Under the pieces are notes generated by a model. That model worked only from the letters and a program-made list of their open reading frames with translations, was not told where the DNA came from and did no database searches. 27,363 bases of DNA from a virus, in IMG/VR virus record IMGVR_UViG_3300009001_000071, positions 1 to 27,363 of that record, one strand, 5' to 3'. Below are positions 15,647-27,363 of this stretch, piece by piece (position 1 is the stretch's first letter; each line of letters opens with the position of its first letter). Both the position numbers and the translations under genes were made by a program.

Positions 15647-17016
15647 GGAGTAAACCTCTTTCCTCTACTACCAACGCCATTGCCAATAGGAACCGTTCCG
15701 AATTTGGGATTCGGGGTCTTCGGAGAAGTTCTGCCAATATTCGGTGGAACGGTTTCAGTATATTTCTCGCTGATCTTTCCTTCCCCAACCATCTTTGCAG
15801 CAATCAATGCTTTGTTGGCAGGATCTCGGAAGCATGAACGAAGTTCCTGTGTGCTTGGTACCTTCTCAAACAAACCTTCATAATCATCTTTGAGAAGAAT
15901 CTTATTCTTCATTCGATCGCCAGCATCAACCGAAACTTTACGAATTGCATAACTGCCGCCAAGCAAATGAATACCTACGATTGGTGCTGCTGGCGGAGGT
16001 GCAGAGGGAAAGACAACCTGCAATTTGTAGAAAGTTGGCGGAACACCGCTAAGTCCGCCAGAAAGGTTTGAGTACATTGAAGAAATTGATTGCATGCTTT
16101 GACCAAAGAACGATCCATAGAATGCTGCACCAGAAGCAAAGGGAACAGGACCAAGAGGACCCTGATAAACCTTGCCTGTAAAGTCAACTGCAGATCCACC
16201 AATGCTCCCGCTAACACCAAGAATAGAAACCTTGGTTGCTGAGATATTTGCTGTCTTAGAAACAGCAACCCACTCTTTCTTACCCGACTGCATAAAGTTT
16301 TCGTCGGAGAACATATTGATGTCGCCTTCGACTTCTAGTGAATATTCTTCCTTGACAACTTTCTTATCGCTACCAAGAACAGCATCTAGATTGTTTCCGA
16401 TTGTTTTTGTTGAGCGAGACTTTTTGGTAATGAAATCAGAATGCCCAGCGACTGTGGTTCTATGATTCTGATTTACATTCTCAATCTTATTTCCTGCAAC
16501 ATTGATATTATAGTTCCCACCAACGTCAACGTTGTAGTCTCCAGTTACCTGAAGGTTCAGATTGCCCTTGTAGATCAGATCTCCTTCACCTTCGATAATC
16601 GCAGTCTGATCGCCACCAGTAACTTCAATCTTATTGTTGACTGCAGAGACAATAACAGAACCATCTGCTCGCATCTCAACGCCAGCACCCTTGCGGTGTT
16701 TGATAAGAATACGCTCACCGCCAGGAGTATCATCATACTCCACAATATGACCAGAGGAAGTCTCTGTTGTTTGGTTGAAGGGGAATCGAGAAGGTTCTTG
16801 TGGTTCAATGTTTAGCGAAACGCCAATATCACCACCACCGACATAGAGATCATTTACCTCTAAACCCCGAGCAGCTCTGTTTATGGAGGATCCATAGTAG
16901 TATTTGCTTTTAGGATACTCTCCTGTAGGATCTTGAAACCCATCAACCGGAATACCTTCAGTCTCATCAACAGAAGGGTTTTCACCCAGGATTCGTTTTT
17001 CTCGTGTAGTTGTCAT
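15643..17016 (-). CDS. 5: gp5 C-terminal needle (beta-helix) protein
   Basis: This 457-aa protein corresponds to the part of T4 gp5 that follows the lysozyme, plus the linker. Residues 27-36 'FQDPTGEYPK' match the T4 gp5 linker FSDPTGQYPR. Residues 84-118 'ETSSGHIVEYDDTPGGERI' then 'KGAGVEMRADGS' match T4 'ETESGHIQEFDDTPGQERY' and 'TGTYEEVSPSGR'. Residues about 140-185 contain Val-Gly repeats ('GNLNLQVTGDYNVDVGGNYN') typical of the triple-stranded beta-helix needle (VgrG/gp5C type). After about residue 245 comes a Gly/Ser/Pro-rich region and a C-terminal stretch near 360-430 ('DPANKALIAAKMVGEGKISE') that T4 gp5 lacks. The ATG overlaps the TGA of the amidase gene (ATGA). It would form the membrane-puncturing spike under the hub. 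Confidence 0.9.
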   Translation of the reverse strand: MTTTREKRILGENPSVDETEGIPVDGFQDPTGEYPKSKYYYGSSINRAARGLEVNDLYVGGGDIGVSLNIEPQEPSRFPFNQTTETSSGHIVEYDDTPGGERILIKHRKGAGVEMRADGSVIVSAVNNKIEVTGGDQTAIIEGEGDLIYKGNLNLQVTGDYNVDVGGNYNINVAGNKIENVNQNHRTTVAGHSDFITKKSRSTKTIGNNLDAVLGSDKKVVKEEYSLEVEGDINMFSDENFMQSGKKEWVAVSKTANISATKVSILGVSGSIGGSAVDFTGKVYQGPLGPVPFASGAAFYGSFFGQSMQSISSMYSNLSGGLSGVPPTFYKLQVVFPSAPPPAAPIVGIHLLGGSYAIRKVSVDAGDRMKNKILLKDDYEGLFEKVPSTQELRSCFRDPANKALIAAKMVGEGKISEKYTETVPPNIGRTSPKTPNPKFGTVPIGNGVGSRGKRFTP

Positions 17017-19028
17017 TTGACTTCCTGATTAATTAAGTCTTTTGTTTCATATGCAGCGTCGTTCAAGAGATCTTCATACACATTCTCTTTTCTAAACAGA
17101 TTCTGGACATATTCAGAAACTTCAAAATAAGGATCAAGAGCACCATCAAAGATCTCATTATGCCCCATTACCTGTCCGCCAGGATATCTGCGGTAGAATG
17201 CCTCTAGAACGGATTCCAAGGTTTTCATCTGAGCAATTGTAAATGACTGAGCAGAGCGATATGTCAGAGGATTCTCGGTCCCGCTCGGGCAGTTTAACCC
17301 ACCAATCAGGACAACATCAATACATCTGACATTATGGTTATTGATGTTGCTTGCCTGAGAAGTCGTGTCCAGAGTCATACCTCTTTGTAGTTTCCCGTCT
17401 CGACGAATCACAAAGTGATACTGAATGCCATCAAATCCTTTCTCATTATGGAACGTATGGAGTTCCTCACTACCAATATTGGCATTCGTATAAGTCTCGC
17501 TCGCATGCACGATGACTTCAGAAATATCTCTCTCAACTCTGGCAAACTCTGCAGCAAGTTCTTCCTTTGACTCAATGTAGGTAAAGGCAGAGAATCCTGA
17601 AGCAGCACCCTGGTAACGAGCAGCAAGTTCTGCGAGGTTGACGTCCTCTTGGAAGAAATCAGCAGAACTTTTAATAATGCTTCCGGAGATAGTTGCATCT
17701 AGATCATCAAGCGAAACTTCTATGTCAACTGCTCTTTGTCTGAACGATTGAATTTCTTCGGGAGAAACTCCTGCTGCCCGTGCTTTCTCTTCAACAGTGT
17801 CCATGAATTCATTCAGGTCTTTTGAACCTTTGACGTTATTGATAACGTTTTTCATTTGAGGAGTAAACAGAGTCGTATTCTGAAGCATTGTGCGAATTGC
17901 TTTGGATCTATCTGTCGGGTTGCCACTCAAACTCTGTTGAATTAGTTCCGAGAGTTGATTGTCATTAAAGTTTGTGCCGAAGGTAAGTTGCTCAATTGTT
18001 CCGGAAATGTTCCTGTATAGATCTTCTGCGAAATTAGGAAGAAACCCCTTCCCTGTATTGATCCCAGTCTTAGATAAAAAATCTGATGCCTGTCCGGCAA
18101 TATCATTAAATGCTCCGGCAAGGGTATCACCAACCCCTCTTTCAACTGCTGTTGAGATTTGGTCAACTGTACTAACAACTTCGTTTACTTTATTGATAAG
18201 TCCGCTTGCATTTCCAAACAAATTGGTGTTTCCAGTCACATCAGAAACAACGTCTATTCCTAGTTTGTCACCAGCAAGGTTTGCCGCAGCAACTGCAGGA
18301 TTCAGAGAGGCAATCGCAGAGGCAGACTGGACAATTCCCGCAATATCACCTTCTTGTAGCGCGTCTGTAAGTTCTGTGAGTTCTCCGCCAGAGGCAGCAT
18401 CCAGAGTTGATGTAATATCGCCCAACAAGGAGTTAGATTTTTCTGCTGCTTTCTCTGTCATTGTCTTGAGATCAGTAAGTGCACTTCCCCCAGAAACAAT
18501 GTCGGTAAGTTTCCTTATTGTTGCCAGTCCAGTGATCAAAGAAATGATTTGAGCAACGCTATTTGCTAATCCGCCGCCAACAGTTTCTACCGAGGAGAAC
18601 ATAGCAGCAAGAGCATCGGGGTCAGAAAAGTCAACTGAGTCTAGCGAACCTGCAGCAGCAGAGTCAATTCCAGCATCAGAATCCAACTCTTTGAATAGCA
18701 ACGAAGGTGTTGCATAATTCATATTGATTTTTTCTGGATCGAAGAATTCGTTGGTCAGTTCACCAACCTTTCTTGGAGCAATTCCAGGAACTGCATCGGT
18801 CATGGAGACCATAGCATCTCCGAGTGGAGTATCTGCTGCTCCGTTTGTTACTGTCTCAAGAGACTGAAACCCCCCAACAATCTCTCCTGTGTTCTTCCCG
18901 AGCAAGGTTGCTTTGTTTGCTGCGGTGAAATCGCTGAGTTCTTGTTTCTTGTCGCCAATCAGATTCTCAAAGGTGTTGTTCTGCTGCTTTGCTTTTAACT
19001 GAATATTTAATTGTTTCTTATCAATCAT
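17013..19028 (-). CDS. Hub-associated protein with C-terminal T7-lysozyme-like amidase domain
   Basis: In this 671-aa protein, residues 1-480 are Ala/Ser/Gly/Asp-rich with amphipathic and hydrophobic helices (e.g. 'SVAQIISLITGLATI' near 155) and no family I recognise. Residues about 500-645 form an N-acetylmuramoyl-L-alanine amidase (Amidase_2/PGRP) fold: 'VIVHASETYTN' with His508 (T7 lysozyme IFVHCSATKPS, His17), 'GIQYHFVIRRDG' with Tyr537 (T7 Tyr46, same 29-residue spacing), 'NNHNVRCIDVVLIGG' (T7 YNHNSIGVCLVGG), and 'MGHNEIFDGALDPYFE' with His623 and Asp632 (T7 His122 and Cys130). The zinc ligands would be His508, His623 and Asp632; Asp is also used in AmpD-type enzymes. The T7 Lys128 position is Ala630. 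It lies between the two gp5 fragments, where T4 gp5 has its lysozyme, so a wall-degrading tail role is likely. Confidence 0.85.
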   Translation of the reverse strand: MIDKKQLNIQLKAKQQNNTFENLIGDKKQELSDFTAANKATLLGKNTGEIVGGFQSLETVTNGAADTPLGDAMVSMTDAVPGIAPRKVGELTNEFFDPEKINMNYATPSLLFKELDSDAGIDSAAAGSLDSVDFSDPDALAAMFSSVETVGGGLANSVAQIISLITGLATIRKLTDIVSGGSALTDLKTMTEKAAEKSNSLLGDITSTLDAASGGELTELTDALQEGDIAGIVQSASAIASLNPAVAAANLAGDKLGIDVVSDVTGNTNLFGNASGLINKVNEVVSTVDQISTAVERGVGDTLAGAFNDIAGQASDFLSKTGINTGKGFLPNFAEDLYRNISGTIEQLTFGTNFNDNQLSELIQQSLSGNPTDRSKAIRTMLQNTTLFTPQMKNVINNVKGSKDLNEFMDTVEEKARAAGVSPEEIQSFRQRAVDIEVSLDDLDATISGSIIKSSADFFQEDVNLAELAARYQGAASGFSAFTYIESKEELAAEFARVERDISEVIVHASETYTNANIGSEELHTFHNEKGFDGIQYHFVIRRDGKLQRGMTLDTTSQASNINNHNVRCIDVVLIGGLNCPSGTENPLTYRSAQSFTIAQMKTLESVLEAFYRRYPGGQVMGHNEIFDGALDPYFEVSEYVQNLFRKENVYEDLLNDAAYETKDLINQEVK

Positions 19029-24571: not shown

Positions 24572-25153
24572 ATGAGTAATCTATTTCAAAGATTAGAACT
24601 TCAGGCATTTCGTGCGGGGATCAACCCCCGTACGAAAGAGAGTCGGGAGTGGTTTCGGAAGAAGGCAAGTAACCTTCGGGCAATCAACAGACGAGAGTTA
24701 ATGAAAGAGGATCCTCTCAAGAGGAGAAGAAAACAGATCGTCGGTTCGATGCAAATGTTTTTCTATGACCCGAAAACAAAGGACACCCTTCCCTACTACG
24801 ATACATTCCCTCTCGTGATTGTTGTTGGTCCGGCAAAGGATGGGTTTTATGGGATCAACCTTCATTATCTTCCTCCGACATTGAGAGCAAAGTTCCTTGA
24901 TGCTCTTATGGAAATTGCTGGTAGCAAGGTAGACGAGAATACGAAGTTTGATCTGACATACAGAATGCTAACGAAGTCATCGAAACTGAGATACTTCAAA
25001 CCTTGTTTTAAACATTACTTGAGCAAACATGTCAAAAGCGACTTTGCTGAAGTTCTTGCTCCGGAGTGGGAGATCGCAACCTTTTTGCCAACAGCGCAGT
25101 GGAAGAAAACCAGTTCGCAAAAGGTTTACTACGATTCTAGGAATAGCATCTAA
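24572..25153 (+). CDS. Conserved T4-type phage protein, possibly gp2-like DNA end protector
   Basis: In this 193-aa protein, residues 1-65 are basic and helical ('RTKESREWFRKKASNLRAIN', 'KRRRKQIVGSM'). Residues 66-110 contain 'FFYDPKTKDTLPYYDTFPLV' and 'GFYGINLHYLPPTLRAKFLD', a conserved signature I associate with myovirus proteins sometimes annotated as DNA end protector. T4 gp2 (DNA end protector, 274 aa) is encoded beside gp4 in T4, and here the gene is two genes after gp4, which fits but does not prove the assignment. The C-terminus is basic with 'YFKPCFKHYLSKHVKSDF'. A head-DNA or neck role is inferred from the basic charge and context. The next gene starts inside its stop codon (TAATG). 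Confidence 0.7.
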   Translation: MSNLFQRLELQAFRAGINPRTKESREWFRKKASNLRAINRRELMKEDPLKRRRKQIVGSMQMFFYDPKTKDTLPYYDTFPLVIVVGPAKDGFYGINLHYLPPTLRAKFLDALMEIAGSKVDENTKFDLTYRMLTKSSKLRYFKPCFKHYLSKHVKSDFAEVLAPEWEIATFLPTAQWKKTSSQKVYYDSRNSI

Positions 25154-25863
25154 TGGCAGGTATCGACGAGTTTAAATCTCTTGTTTCTCAAGGAGCAGGA
25201 CTAGCAAGACCGAATCTATTTCGAGTCTTTTTACCTTCTCTTGGCGGAAGCACAAAAGAACTCAGTCTATTATGCAAGGCAACTGAATTGCCTGGAAGAC
25301 AGGTAACTTCGATTGACCATCAGGTCGGAACACCACTCAGAAAGATTGCAAATGGATATGCAGTCACAGATGTTAACCTGACATTTCATGTTCTGAACAC
25401 CCATTCAATTAAAAGTTATTTTGAAACCTGGCAGAGTCTTGCGCACAGTAATTCTTCTTATGAGGTTGGGTACTACTACAATTATGTCAAACCTGTTGCA
25501 ATTCAGCAGGTTCAGAGAGGACAAGTAGTTCCCCTTCTTCGCAGGCAGTTAGGTTTTGTTGATAAGATTCCAGGATTCATTTTGAATCGACTGCCAGATA
25601 TTGGTCCGCTTAACACTTCCTCTGGTCAATTGTCTATTGGTCTCGAGTTTGACGAGACGCCAGTGTATACTTGTTTCCTCCTTGAAGCATACCCAACAAC
25701 AATGACTGCGATCCAGTTAGGAGACGAACAAGAAAACCAGACAATGGAGTTGAGCGTTCAACTCTCATATAAAGATTGGGTCAGTGGCGTCAAAGAACCA
25801 AATGATAACCTTGCTGCCTCAATTGCTGGGTTTGGTATTAATAAGATTAGGAACTTTTTTTGA
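25153..25863 (+). CDS. Tail-tube-fold protein, gp54-like (or gp19-like)
   Basis: In this 236-aa protein, 'RPNLFRVFLPSLGG' near residues 19-32, 'LSLLCKATELPGRQV' at about 37-51, 'TDVNLTFHVLNTHSIKSYFE' around 73-92 and 'YTCFLLEAYPTTMTAIQLGD' near 175-194, followed by 'LSVQLSYKDW', form the layout of the T4 gp19/gp54 tail-tube family. An insertion at about residues 118-160 ('LLRRQLGFVDKIPGFILNRL') interrupts the fold. Length lies between T4 gp19 (163) and gp54 (320). Because it is next to gp26 and the tape measure and not beside a sheath gene, I favour the tube initiator gp54 over the major tube protein, but not strongly. The TAATG overlap suggests coupling to the 193-aa gene. Confidence 0.75.
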   Translation: MAGIDEFKSLVSQGAGLARPNLFRVFLPSLGGSTKELSLLCKATELPGRQVTSIDHQVGTPLRKIANGYAVTDVNLTFHVLNTHSIKSYFETWQSLAHSNSSYEVGYYYNYVKPVAIQQVQRGQVVPLLRRQLGFVDKIPGFILNRLPDIGPLNTSSGQLSIGLEFDETPVYTCFLLEAYPTTMTAIQLGDEQENQTMELSVQLSYKDWVSGVKEPNDNLAASIAGFGINKIRNFF

Positions 25864-25883: not shown

Positions 25884-26588
25884 ATGGCACTTCCAAAGTT
25901 GAATGAAACGCCAAAGTATGAAGTAGAAATTCCATCGACAGGCAAGACAGTTAGGTTTCGTCCTTATCTGGTAAAAGAAGAAAAAGTCCTCATGATGGCA
26001 TTCGAATCTGGGGATCAGAAAGCAGCGTTAAGAGCAATTGTTGATACAATTGAAGCATGCATTGTAGACAAAATTGATGCTACTAATCTGGCGACGTTTG
26101 ATGTTGAGTACCTGTTTACTCAGATTCGGTCAAAGTCTGTTGGTGAAAGTTCTACGCTGATGATTAAGTGTAAGGAGTGCGAGAAACAGAATGAGTATAA
26201 ATTCGATGTTTCTCAAGTAAACGTCAATGTAGAAAAGAAAGATTCTGTCATTGAGATTACTCCTGAAATTTCTATAGAGTTAGGTTATCCGACATACAGT
26301 TCCATTTCTGAGACAAACTTTGAAGGGAATGAAATGGAAGTCGGATTTGATTTGGCAGTGAGTTGTATCAAAAGGATTATGACAGAGGAAGAATTGATTG
26401 AATCTTCTGATGTCTCCAAACAAGAACTTATTGAGTTTGTGGAGTCCATGAGTCAAGAGCAGTTTAAGAACATAACTGACTTCTTGCAGGCAATGCCTTC
26501 TATGCAACATGTCGCAAACTTCACGTGCGAACACTGCGGAGAAGAAAACGAATTGGTCTTGAGAGGGATGCAAGATTTTTTATCGTAA
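25884..26588 (+). CDS. 26: Baseplate hub / tail-assembly protein gp26
   Basis: This 234-aa protein has an N-terminus 'YEVEIPSTGKTVRFRPYLVK' and 'EEKVLMMA' (residues 12-39), 'IRSKSVGE' (81-88) and a C-terminal region that fit the T4_baseplate family (PF12322, gp26; T4 gp26 is 208 aa). Two CxxC pairs are present, Cys96-x2-Cys99 and Cys215-x2-Cys218, which together could bind zinc. The ATG has AGGAG with 6-base spacing, the best ribosome site in the rightward cluster. The frame ends at TAA (26586-26588), three bases after a T TTT TTA heptamer, and a -1 frame continues beyond. Placed before a tape-measure candidate, it occupies the tail-assembly chaperone position (lambda gpG slot). Confidence 0.88.
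   Translation: MALPKLNETPKYEVEIPSTGKTVRFRPYLVKEEKVLMMAFESGDQKAALRAIVDTIEACIVDKIDATNLATFDVEYLFTQIRSKSVGESSTLMIKCKECEKQNEYKFDVSQVNVNVEKKDSVIEITPEISIELGYPTYSSISETNFEGNEMEVGFDLAVSCIKRIMTEEELIESSDVSKQELIEFVESMSQEQFKNITDFLQAMPSMQHVANFTCEHCGEENELVLRGMQDFLS
26562..26582 (+). promoter_or_regulatory. -1 programmed ribosomal frameshift site (gp26 to extension)
   Basis: The heptamer T TTT TTA at 26576-26582 is in register with the gp26 zero frame (GA-T TTT TTA TCG TAA), the X XXY YYZ form used in HIV-1 and many phage tail genes. AGAGGG at 26562-26567, ending 8 bases upstream, is a Shine-Dalgarno-like stimulator like that of E. coli dnaX. A weak inverted repeat, TATCGT (26581-26586) with ACGATA (26598-26603), overlaps the site's 3' end. 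The zero-frame stop is four bases after the heptamer, and the -1 frame stays open for 62 more residues. Confidence 0.82.
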
Positions 26589-26770
26589 ACCTCTCACACG
26601 ATAGTTTGGTGAACCATTATAAAACAAACTTTTCGTTGATGCAACATCATCACTATAGTCTGACAGAGATTGAATTGATGATGCCGTGGGAGAGGGAAAT
26701 CTACGTTGCTATGTTAATTGAGTATGTAAGAGAAGAGAATGAGAGAATAAAAAACCAACAGAACGGATAA
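26582..26770 (+). CDS. -1 frame extension of gp26 (GT-like chaperone tail; position of gp51)
   Basis: Reading continues in the -1 frame after the slip, giving 62 residues ('IVNLSHDSLVNHYKTNFSLM' then 'HHYSLTEIELMMPWEREIYV') and a total fusion of about 295 aa. The 'LTEIELMMPWEREIYVAMLI' stretch followed by a Glu/Arg/Asn-rich helix resembles the downstream parts of frameshifted tail-assembly chaperones. The only in-frame ATG (26639) has no Shine-Dalgarno, so independent initiation is unlikely. In T4, gene 51 occupies the slot after 26, but T4 gp51 is about 249 aa, so I call this gp51 by position only. It ends 6 bases before the tape-measure ATG. Confidence 0.75.
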   Translation: MVNLSHDSLVNHYKTNFSLMQHHHYSLTEIELMMPWEREIYVAMLIEYVREENERIKNQQNG

Positions 26771-26776
26771 ACTGCA

Positions 26777-27363
26777 ATGGCAGAAAATAAAACTCTAGCA
26801 GATGTAATTAAGGTATTGAGGGACCAGGGGCAACTCACCCGAAATTCTGGTACGAACTCAATCAAATCTGTGAAAGAAATACTCATGGGCGGAGATGAAG
26901 AACTCTCAGAAACAATCTCCGATCTTGTTGATGAGTTTAAGCAAAACAGATTAGACGCTGAAGAGGAAAGAAGGGAAAGGAAACCAGGCAGTTCTGTCCC
27001 TCCTCAAAAAGAACCTGAAAGTGCAAAGGCAGATTTCGGATTCGGTTCATTTGGAATTGCTGGCGTGTTGACTGCTATTGCTGGTTCTGCTGTTGGTGCA
27101 TTGACTGGATTGTTGGAAGGTGCTGCAAAGTTCTTCCGTCCCATTACAAGATTCTTTACCGAGAATCCCATTGTCCGCTCTGTGAAGAAAATGTTCGATA
27201 GTATTAAAGATGCAGAGGGTGGATTCCGTAAAGGGATCAATGATAAGGTTATTAAACCTATCAAAGATTTCGGAGGAAGAATCGCCAAAGTCTTTGAACC
27301 CATTACCCAGTTTTTCCAAGGTGGTGGTGACGATGCATTCAAGAGACTCCGGCAGTTAAAAAC
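26777..27363 (+). CDS. Probable tail tape-measure protein (gp29-like), C-terminus beyond window
   Basis: The frame is open to the right edge (195 codons seen). Residues 1-70 are helical and charged ('DVIKVLRDQGQLTRN', 'LDAEEERRERK'), then a Pro-rich linker. Residues 88-118 form a Gly/Ala-rich hydrophobic segment ('GIAGVLTAIAGSAVGALTGL'). After it come related units 'FFRPITRFF' and 'VFEPITQFF' about 55 residues apart, separated by helical 'VKKMFDSI' stretches. Helical sequence with a hydrophobic segment, directly after tail-assembly chaperone genes, is the usual picture of a tape measure, which sets tail length and leads DNA passage. No residue-level match to T4 gp29 was made. The ribosome site is weak, so coupling from the extension is likely. 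Confidence 0.65.
   Translation, partial: MAENKTLADVIKVLRDQGQLTRNSGTNSIKSVKEILMGGDEELSETISDLVDEFKQNRLDAEEERRERKPGSSVPPQKEPESAKADFGFGSFGIAGVLTAIAGSAVGALTGLLEGAAKFFRPITRFFTENPIVRSVKKMFDSIKDAEGGFRKGINDKVIKPIKDFGGRIAKVFEPITQFFQGGGDDAFKRLRQLK

Follow-up and report, generated by a model that had tools for sequence, protein, structure and literature searches.

A conserved slippery heptamer at the 3' end of gp26 and a covarying long-range RNA stem just past it in T4-related phages point to a tail assembly chaperone made in two forms

Does gp26 of T4-related phages end at its own stop codon, or is it also carried on, by a -1 frameshift, into the short gp51-like reading frame that follows? The locus that raises this question lies in IMGVR_UViG_3300009001_000071, a record of a T4-related marine virus, of which positions 1-27,363 were examined (27,363 nt, hereafter the window). 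The first-pass annotation of this DNA described a T_TTT_TTA heptamer in register at the end of gp26, an AGAGGG sequence 8 nt 5' of it, a zero-frame stop beginning 4 nt past it and a -1 frame of 62 codons, and all of these were borne out (Table 1). The 3' codons of gp26 are GAT (26574-26576), TTT (26577-26579), TTA (26580-26582), TCG and TAA (26586-26588), and the -1 frame closes with TAA at 26768-26770. Judged by sequence, gp26 together with the -1 extension is the long form of a tail assembly chaperone (TAC), i.e., TAC-NC. The locus sits between the tail tube gene (phrog_45) and a tape-measure gene, the latter recognized through relatives, in which the gene downstream of gp26 matches tape-measure PHROGs (3e-9 in L004 and 1e-14 in L008); together with the weak matches in the window, this backs the earlier suggestion that a tape-measure gene comes next. 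Our preferred reading, to which we assign a probability of about 0.92, is that one tail assembly chaperone would be produced in two forms, gp26 (TAC-N) and gp26-gp51 (TAC-NC), by -1 frameshifting at T_TTT_TTA.

Table 1. Features of the gp26 locus in the window (positions counted from the first nucleotide of the window).
Feature	Position	Strand	Details
Tail tube protein gene, upstream of gp26	25153..25863	+	phrog_45 4e-30
gp26, putative short tail assembly chaperone (TAC-N)	25884..26588	+	234 aa, ATG to TAA; PF12322 5e-62, phrog_150 1e-65
Shine-Dalgarno-like AGAGGG	26562..26567	+	8 nt between element and heptamer
Slippery heptamer T_TTT_TTA	26576..26582	+	in gp26 register
-1 frame extension, gp51-like	26582..26770	+	62 codons + TAA; phrog_634 1e-27, phrog_150 C-terminus 1e-5
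Heptamer-to-stem spacer	26583..26589	+	7 nt, inside the 5-9 nt range usual for 3' stimulators
gp26 zero-frame stop TAA	26586..26588	+	starts 4 nt past heptamer
Long-range stem, 5' arm, CCTCTCACA	26590..26598	+	one A.G mismatch in window
Long-range stem, 3' arm, TGGGAGAGG	26687..26695	+	W-E-R codons of the -1 frame
Downstream gene, tape-measure candidate	26777..27363	+	weak phrog tape-measure matches in window

A tblastn search with gp26 returned 686 phage records at a cutoff of E 1e-5, and 1,752 when the cutoff was raised to E 10. We compared 160 IMG/VR loci and a set of named phage regions, and of the 183 sequences scanned 176 carry an in-frame TTTTTT close to the gp26 end; those without it are T6, AbTZA1 and Aes508 (T4-type), SP-15, Sa157lw (Ackermannviridae), Cygsa01 and D494. 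In the non-redundant set of 117 representatives sharing less than 80% DNA identity, NNT TTT TTN is kept in frame in every relative; the remaining 27,832 codon positions of these genes, taken as a control, contain only 7 in-frame TTTTTT. All 117 encode the first phenylalanine of the site by TTT (the TTT share elsewhere is 70%). The codon before it encodes various amino acids but invariably has T as its last base, and the second slip codon is unconstrained at its third base (T in 68, C in 28, A in 15 and G in 6 loci). An invariant TTT with a free last base is the sequence signature of an X_XXY_YYZ site. With synonymous codons drawn at the frequencies of each gene, log10 P for finding the slip site in all these loci is about -50, a value which is overstated since the loci are related, though too little to matter. 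The 117 loci, mostly from uncultured contigs, are mutually related. For the window alone the synonymous chance of the heptamer is 0.25, so the case rests on conservation and the argument from a single sequence is weak. The alignment of gp26 3' ends across T4-like phages, which the first-pass annotation had proposed as a check of heptamer conservation, thus turned out in its favor, with T_TTT_TTN in all 117. We rejected a sequencing error as the origin of the frame break, since the same break is present in 117 distinct loci. Against the frameshift reading, U_UUU_UUA shifts less than A_AAA_AAG in E. coli (PMC5009743).

In the -1 frame, protein conservation starts directly after the slip site. 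Pairwise amino-acid identity per codon among the 117 relatives is 0.08-0.46 before the slip and reaches 0.7-0.9 past it at L5, S6, H7, L10, N17, F18, P36, W37, E38 and L46. In 78 of the 117 loci the -1 frame has its first possible start (ATG, GTG or TTG) 10 or more codons past the slip, within the conserved domain, and in 34 a -1 stop is found no more than 2 codons upstream of the slip. The -1 ORF of the window has a GTG at 26525, inside gp26 and without a Shine-Dalgarno sequence, and its other starts are only TTG/GTG 10-11 codons past the slip, within the conserved domain; the earlier remark that this frame has no usable start is therefore a fair reading. Annotated gp51 starts in relatives are scattered from 4 to 35 codons past the slip, none with a clear Shine-Dalgarno sequence, and a joined gp26-gp51 gene is marked in none of the public annotated regions viewed. 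When the window gp26 is joined to the extension at the slip, phrog_150 is matched in one stretch over positions 5-276 with 263.8 bits, as compared with 222.6 bits for gp26 alone. T6 gp51 matches positions 13-280 of the same profile, which thus evidently holds naturally fused members; the joined match therefore reflects a known protein shape and is not proof that joining occurs.

Upstream of the slip site, the Shine-Dalgarno-like stretch (codons -7 to -2) has a mean anti-Shine-Dalgarno binding energy of -5.98 vs. -4.90 kcal/mol after synonymous recoding. This corresponds to z -9.3 in the 117 relatives, with control windows between -0.8 and +1.9, and the arginine at codon -5 is encoded by AGR in 23 of 23 cases. 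By this measure, the element binds more strongly than expected from synonymous codon usage alone.

Downstream of the slip site, local folding energy reaches z -1.6 at +11 to +71 and stays at about 0 to -0.5 elsewhere. A systematic helix search found that offsets 13-21 pair with offsets 110-118 (offset 0 being position 26577), forming a 9-bp long-range stem which starts 7 nt past the heptamer; 3' stimulators usually lie 5-9 nt past it (PMC5009743). In the window, CCTCTCACA and TGGGAGAGG form 8 of the 9 pairs and the stem is present in the minimum-energy fold. Both arms encode conserved peptide, and the synonymous null was for this reason applied to both. The observed duplex energy is -14.0 vs. 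-6.25 kcal/mol under this null (z -25), with shifted controls between z -3.8 and +2.7. The excess is due to codon choice: AGG makes up 50% of arginine codons at codon 39 vs. 11% elsewhere, CTC 53% of leucine codons at codon 5 vs. 6%, and GAG 59% of glutamate codons at codon 38 vs. 27%. At two pairs both partners are third codon positions, and these pairs covary (C-G in 46 and U-A in 34 loci; C-G in 47 and U-A in 28), with at least 17 and at least 14 independent C-G/U-A double switches, respectively, on the gp26 tree. By pair counting, covariation is 0.185 vs. 0.117 when shuffled, and 88.4% of cells are paired in the stem vs. 42-68% when it is slid. The pairing probability over offsets 13-20 is 0.90 vs. 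0.57 under the synonymous null, is also raised over offsets 110-118, has sharp edges, and exceeds 0.8 in 100 of 114 loci vs. 82 of 570 recoded sequences. Pelagibacter phage Mosig, added afterwards, forms 9 of 9 long-range pairs. Taken with the position of the stem, these data suggest that folded RNA past the slip site probably sets the slip frequency.

RNAalifold returned no structure on the ungapped set, probably because the 3' partner differs among lineages; folding each sequence against a synonymous null revealed the stem where RNAalifold gave none. The most distant relatives were folded singly, since indels put them outside the ungapped long-range test. Rfam gave no frameshift-element match near any gathering score, and a scan of the distant alignment (A2) found no conserved block. 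The first-pass annotation had also pointed to a possible pseudoknot between TCAC (26594-26597) and GTGA (26609-26612). This pairing is present in the window and kept in only 9 of the 117 relatives (0-2 in slid controls), and we rejected it as the stimulator; the candidate stimulatory structure is the different, long-range stem.

The long stem is not universal. Among 114 loci, we found 76 with the long-range partner, 10 with a partner about 70-100 nt past the slip, 15 with a local partner and 13 with no confident 3' structure, the last including S-SM1 and ACG-2014d. Local partners are exemplified by a strong hairpin in P-SSM2 and a hairpin of unrelated sequence in Astolliot; among the named phages added later, Sf-FR1 and S-CAM3 have local hairpins and P-SSM7 a weak structure. 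The position of the 5' arm is constant across the three structured classes. Since the -1 frame runs through the distant arm, a ribosome that slipped would have to melt the stem in passing. This position led us to a speculation which we regard as rather unlikely: a 5' arm fixed about 7 nt past the slip might accept exchangeable partners (a local hairpin, one at ~70-100 nt or one at 110-118 nt), and a slipped ribosome, by melting the stem, might lower the chance of the next slip and so damp fluctuations of the short:long ratio.

As for the protein, the AlphaFold2 model of gp26 (pLDDT 90) matches solved structures through its N-terminal domain only, namely 3fgx (Z 8.1 over 86 residues) and HK97 gp13, 2ob9 (Z 7.5 over 85 residues), with the next-best row at Z 4.4. 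VIA-align scores of 7.5-8.1 over one domain are moderate; still, both top-ranking structures, 3FGX and 2OB9, are known chaperones, listed as tail assembly chaperones in PMC9603447. With moderate confidence, the model suggests that the N-terminal ~90 aa of gp26 adopt the TAC fold (HK97 gp13-like). A PDB sequence search with gp26 found nothing, and Foldseek alone gave no significant gp26 match, placing TAC entries at E 0.66-1.5. Past the TAC fold, gp26 has a domain with two CxxC pairs (C96, C99, C215 and C218). Its C-terminal half weakly resembles ZPR1-like zinc domains (2qkd, Z 3.1), and the CxxC cysteines are missing from P-SSM2-like cyanophages.

Both parts of the window locus are homologous to the T4-like gp26/gp51 families (PF12322, phrog_150 and phrog_634). 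The first 200 residues of T6-type gp51 align with gp26 (hhalign E 5e-14) and its last 50 residues with the -1 extension (E 1e-8), by which T6-type gp51 is the long form, a gp26-like N-terminus plus the extension, encoded as one continuous gene. T6 and Aes508 possess a separate gp51 of 249 aa. We found that the slip site is absent from the gp26 genes of T6 and AbTZA1, and that the gp51 genes of T6, Aes508 and AbTZA1 have no stem (dG equal to the null). As T6-type genes need no frameshift, they act as a control: a lack of both slip site and stem is what one would predict for them if the two elements function in frameshifting. Next to the window gp26, no separate full-length gp51 with its own gp26-like N-terminus occurs in this 27 kb fragment of the genome, only the 62-codon extension. 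The first-pass annotation noted that in T4 genes 26 and 51 are treated as separate hub-assembly genes. T6, which is closely related to T4, has a continuous gene 51 of its own for the long form, and the hub role is disfavored by the TAC fold and synteny. Its proposal that gp26/gp51 are tape-measure chaperones agrees with the TAC fold, the position before the tape measure and the published T4-like reassignment.

The joining of gp26 to its extension in the manner of lambda G/GT, as first proposed, is strongly supported by lines of evidence that come from comparative computation: the conserved heptamer, frame-specific protein selection, selection on the Shine-Dalgarno-like element, the covarying stem, the TAC fold, synteny and homology to a natural fusion. 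The same data bear on other readings. That gp51 is a separate small protein with its own start, translated by re-initiation after the gp26 end, seems to us very improbable. It is listed as a separate gene in those annotated relatives that have it, and in the distant relatives KVP40, Cr30 and AF3 an ATG overlaps the gp26 stop, where a free extension made by re-initiation is possible. Yet the late first start codons (78 of 117 loci), the -1 stops just upstream (34 of 117) and the spread of annotated starts over codons 4-35 without a clear Shine-Dalgarno sequence speak against it, and re-initiation accounts for neither the invariant T_TTT_TTN nor the stem 7 nt past the heptamer. Hardly any weight falls on slippage of RNA polymerase, rather than the ribosome, on the T run as the event that joins the frames: eight consecutive T (TTTTTTTT then AG) are present in many relatives, but the window and others have exactly six, and in 28 of 117 a C after six T breaks the run. 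Polymerase slippage would also give no reason to expect a Shine-Dalgarno-like element or an RNA stem spaced as for ribosomes.

Two further alternatives leave the frameshift in place. The 3' stem might be a by-product of conserved codons (LSH, PWER) and not a stimulator, given that both arms lie in conserved peptide and several pairs are therefore invariant. We find this improbable, since the stem energy far exceeds the synonymous null applied to both arms, the rare AGG and CTC codons are enriched at codons 39 and 5, the doubly synonymous pairs switch together, T6-type gp51 genes lack the stem and non-homologous partners retain the same 5' position. It is likewise improbable, in our estimate, that the two forms serve baseplate hub assembly instead of tape-measure coating. 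The traditional T4 naming of gp26/gp51 favors such a role, as do the labels 'baseplate hub' and 'baseplate hub assembly catalyst' in databases. Against it stand the TAC fold match, the tape-measure gene next in order and the published work that, by its title as cited in PMC10885494, reassigns gp26/gp51 of T4-like phages to the TACs.

Under the frameshift reading, most ribosomes would finish gp26 (TAC-N), stopping at 26586. A minority, held by pairing of AGAGGG with 16S rRNA and by the folded RNA 7 nt downstream, would slip back one base on T_TTT_TTA and read 62 more codons, yielding gp26-gp51 (TAC-NC), in which QDF-L/F-IVNL is the predicted junction. If the two forms act as lambda gpG/gpGT do, the tape-measure protein would be coated by the gp26 part and tail-tube subunits recruited by the extension, in which case the slip rate would set the ratio of the two forms. 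We infer the slipping itself, its rate and the role of each form. Of the earlier claim that two chaperone forms are made at a fixed ratio, the two forms are supported by the frameshift signal, and the fixed ratio would be a consequence of the proposed mechanism.

Among known systems, lambda G/GT (Levin 1993; Xu, Hendrix and Duda 2004, 2013, 2014) resembles the window in having a short and a frameshifted long chaperone before the tape measure, an extension read in the -1 frame where the short ORF ends, and the HK97 gp13 chaperone fold. It differs in that no sequence similarity is seen and in that the window site is flanked by a Shine-Dalgarno-like element and a covarying 3' stem. The lambda heptamer also differs from T_TTT_TTA. 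E. coli dnaX and the IS3-family/IS911 elements share with the window a heptamer with structured RNA about 5-9 nt downstream and, for dnaX, a Shine-Dalgarno-like element upstream; their slip heptamer is another one. Unlike in dnaX and IS911, the loop of the main 3' stem in the window spans 88 nt, the -1 coding region contains the distant arm, and lineages differ in the partner used. The TAC locus of Vandenendeviridae/Andersonviridae (phage Adele), as far as PMC12846349 describes it, is likewise a myophage locus with a conserved poly-T slip motif and an open -1 frame, but it belongs to other phage families and has a GTTTTT motif, and the parts of that source consulted mention no stimulatory structure.

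Within the T4-like group, gp26/gp51 were identified as tail assembly chaperones by Vladimirov, Gautam and Davidson (2022, Virology 566:9-15; as cited in PMC10885494 and PMC12846349), in a paper whose title argues for a mechanism other than frameshifting. In PMC10885494 (PRFect), the short and the fused form are described as encoded by separate genes in some T4-like phages, and PMC12846349 names Vladimirov 2022 as the source for slippery poly-T sequences in TAC-N genes of T4-like phages; that some members of the group frameshift was thus probably noted there already. The TAC-N and TAC-NC of that work belong to the same families as the window proteins (PF12322, phrog_150 and phrog_634), the window fusion being the counterpart of T6-type gp51, and no RNA stem is mentioned in the work as cited. 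The window combines an X_XXY_YYZ heptamer, a Shine-Dalgarno-like element 8 nt upstream and a covarying stem 7 nt downstream, as is characteristic of -1 programmed ribosomal frameshifting. No report of Shine-Dalgarno-like selection or of a covarying stem in T4-like gp26 was found in the partial literature searched, and the conserved stimulatory RNA in gp26 appears to be new.

T4 is the textbook exception to the lambda-type frameshift, which a 2016 review describes as conserved in long-tailed phages 'except T4' (PMC5009743). Our comparison now places the frameshift signal across the wider kin of T4, i.e., cyanophages, Pelagibacter and Methylophilales phages, KVP40-type phages, and Rhizobium and Caulobacter phages, and T6-type phages encode the long form in a gene of its own. 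With the covarying stem, there is now a defined element that can be mutated to study how the chaperone ratio of a phage is set. Re-annotation could also correct the many records in which 'gp51' lacks a proper start. Public gp51 annotations shortened to 31-34 aa are found in P-SSM7 (L188, 2301-2396) and C48C1 (L002, 3783-3887), whose annotated starts lie 35 and 28 codons past the slip, respectively, and which are targets for such re-annotation.

Several loci show variant sites. In Bacillus phage SP-15 (L103, about 2160-2422), a gp26-like gene with GAA TTT TTT CAC near its end is accompanied by an extension-like stretch of ~66 codons in the +1 (= -2) frame, which suggests a different shift direction. 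Sa157lw (L098), Cygsa01 (L100) and D494 (L101) have extension-like -1 frames at their gp26 ends with ATT_TTC or CTT_TTC at the site, on which full re-pairing of the P-site tRNA would not be possible; Cygsa01 and D494 also have an ATG overlapping the gp26 stop. Rhizobium phage RHph_I1_18 (L086, about 2196-2235) carries an in-frame T_TTT_TTA about 10 codons before the zero-frame stop, a distance of 2-3 codons in nearly all others. Elsewhere in the window, the tail/baseplate region contains an ORF of 671 aa on the minus strand (17013-19028), whose end resembles, by eye only, N-acetylmuramoyl-L-alanine amidase (GFDGIQYHFVIRRDGKLQRG...).
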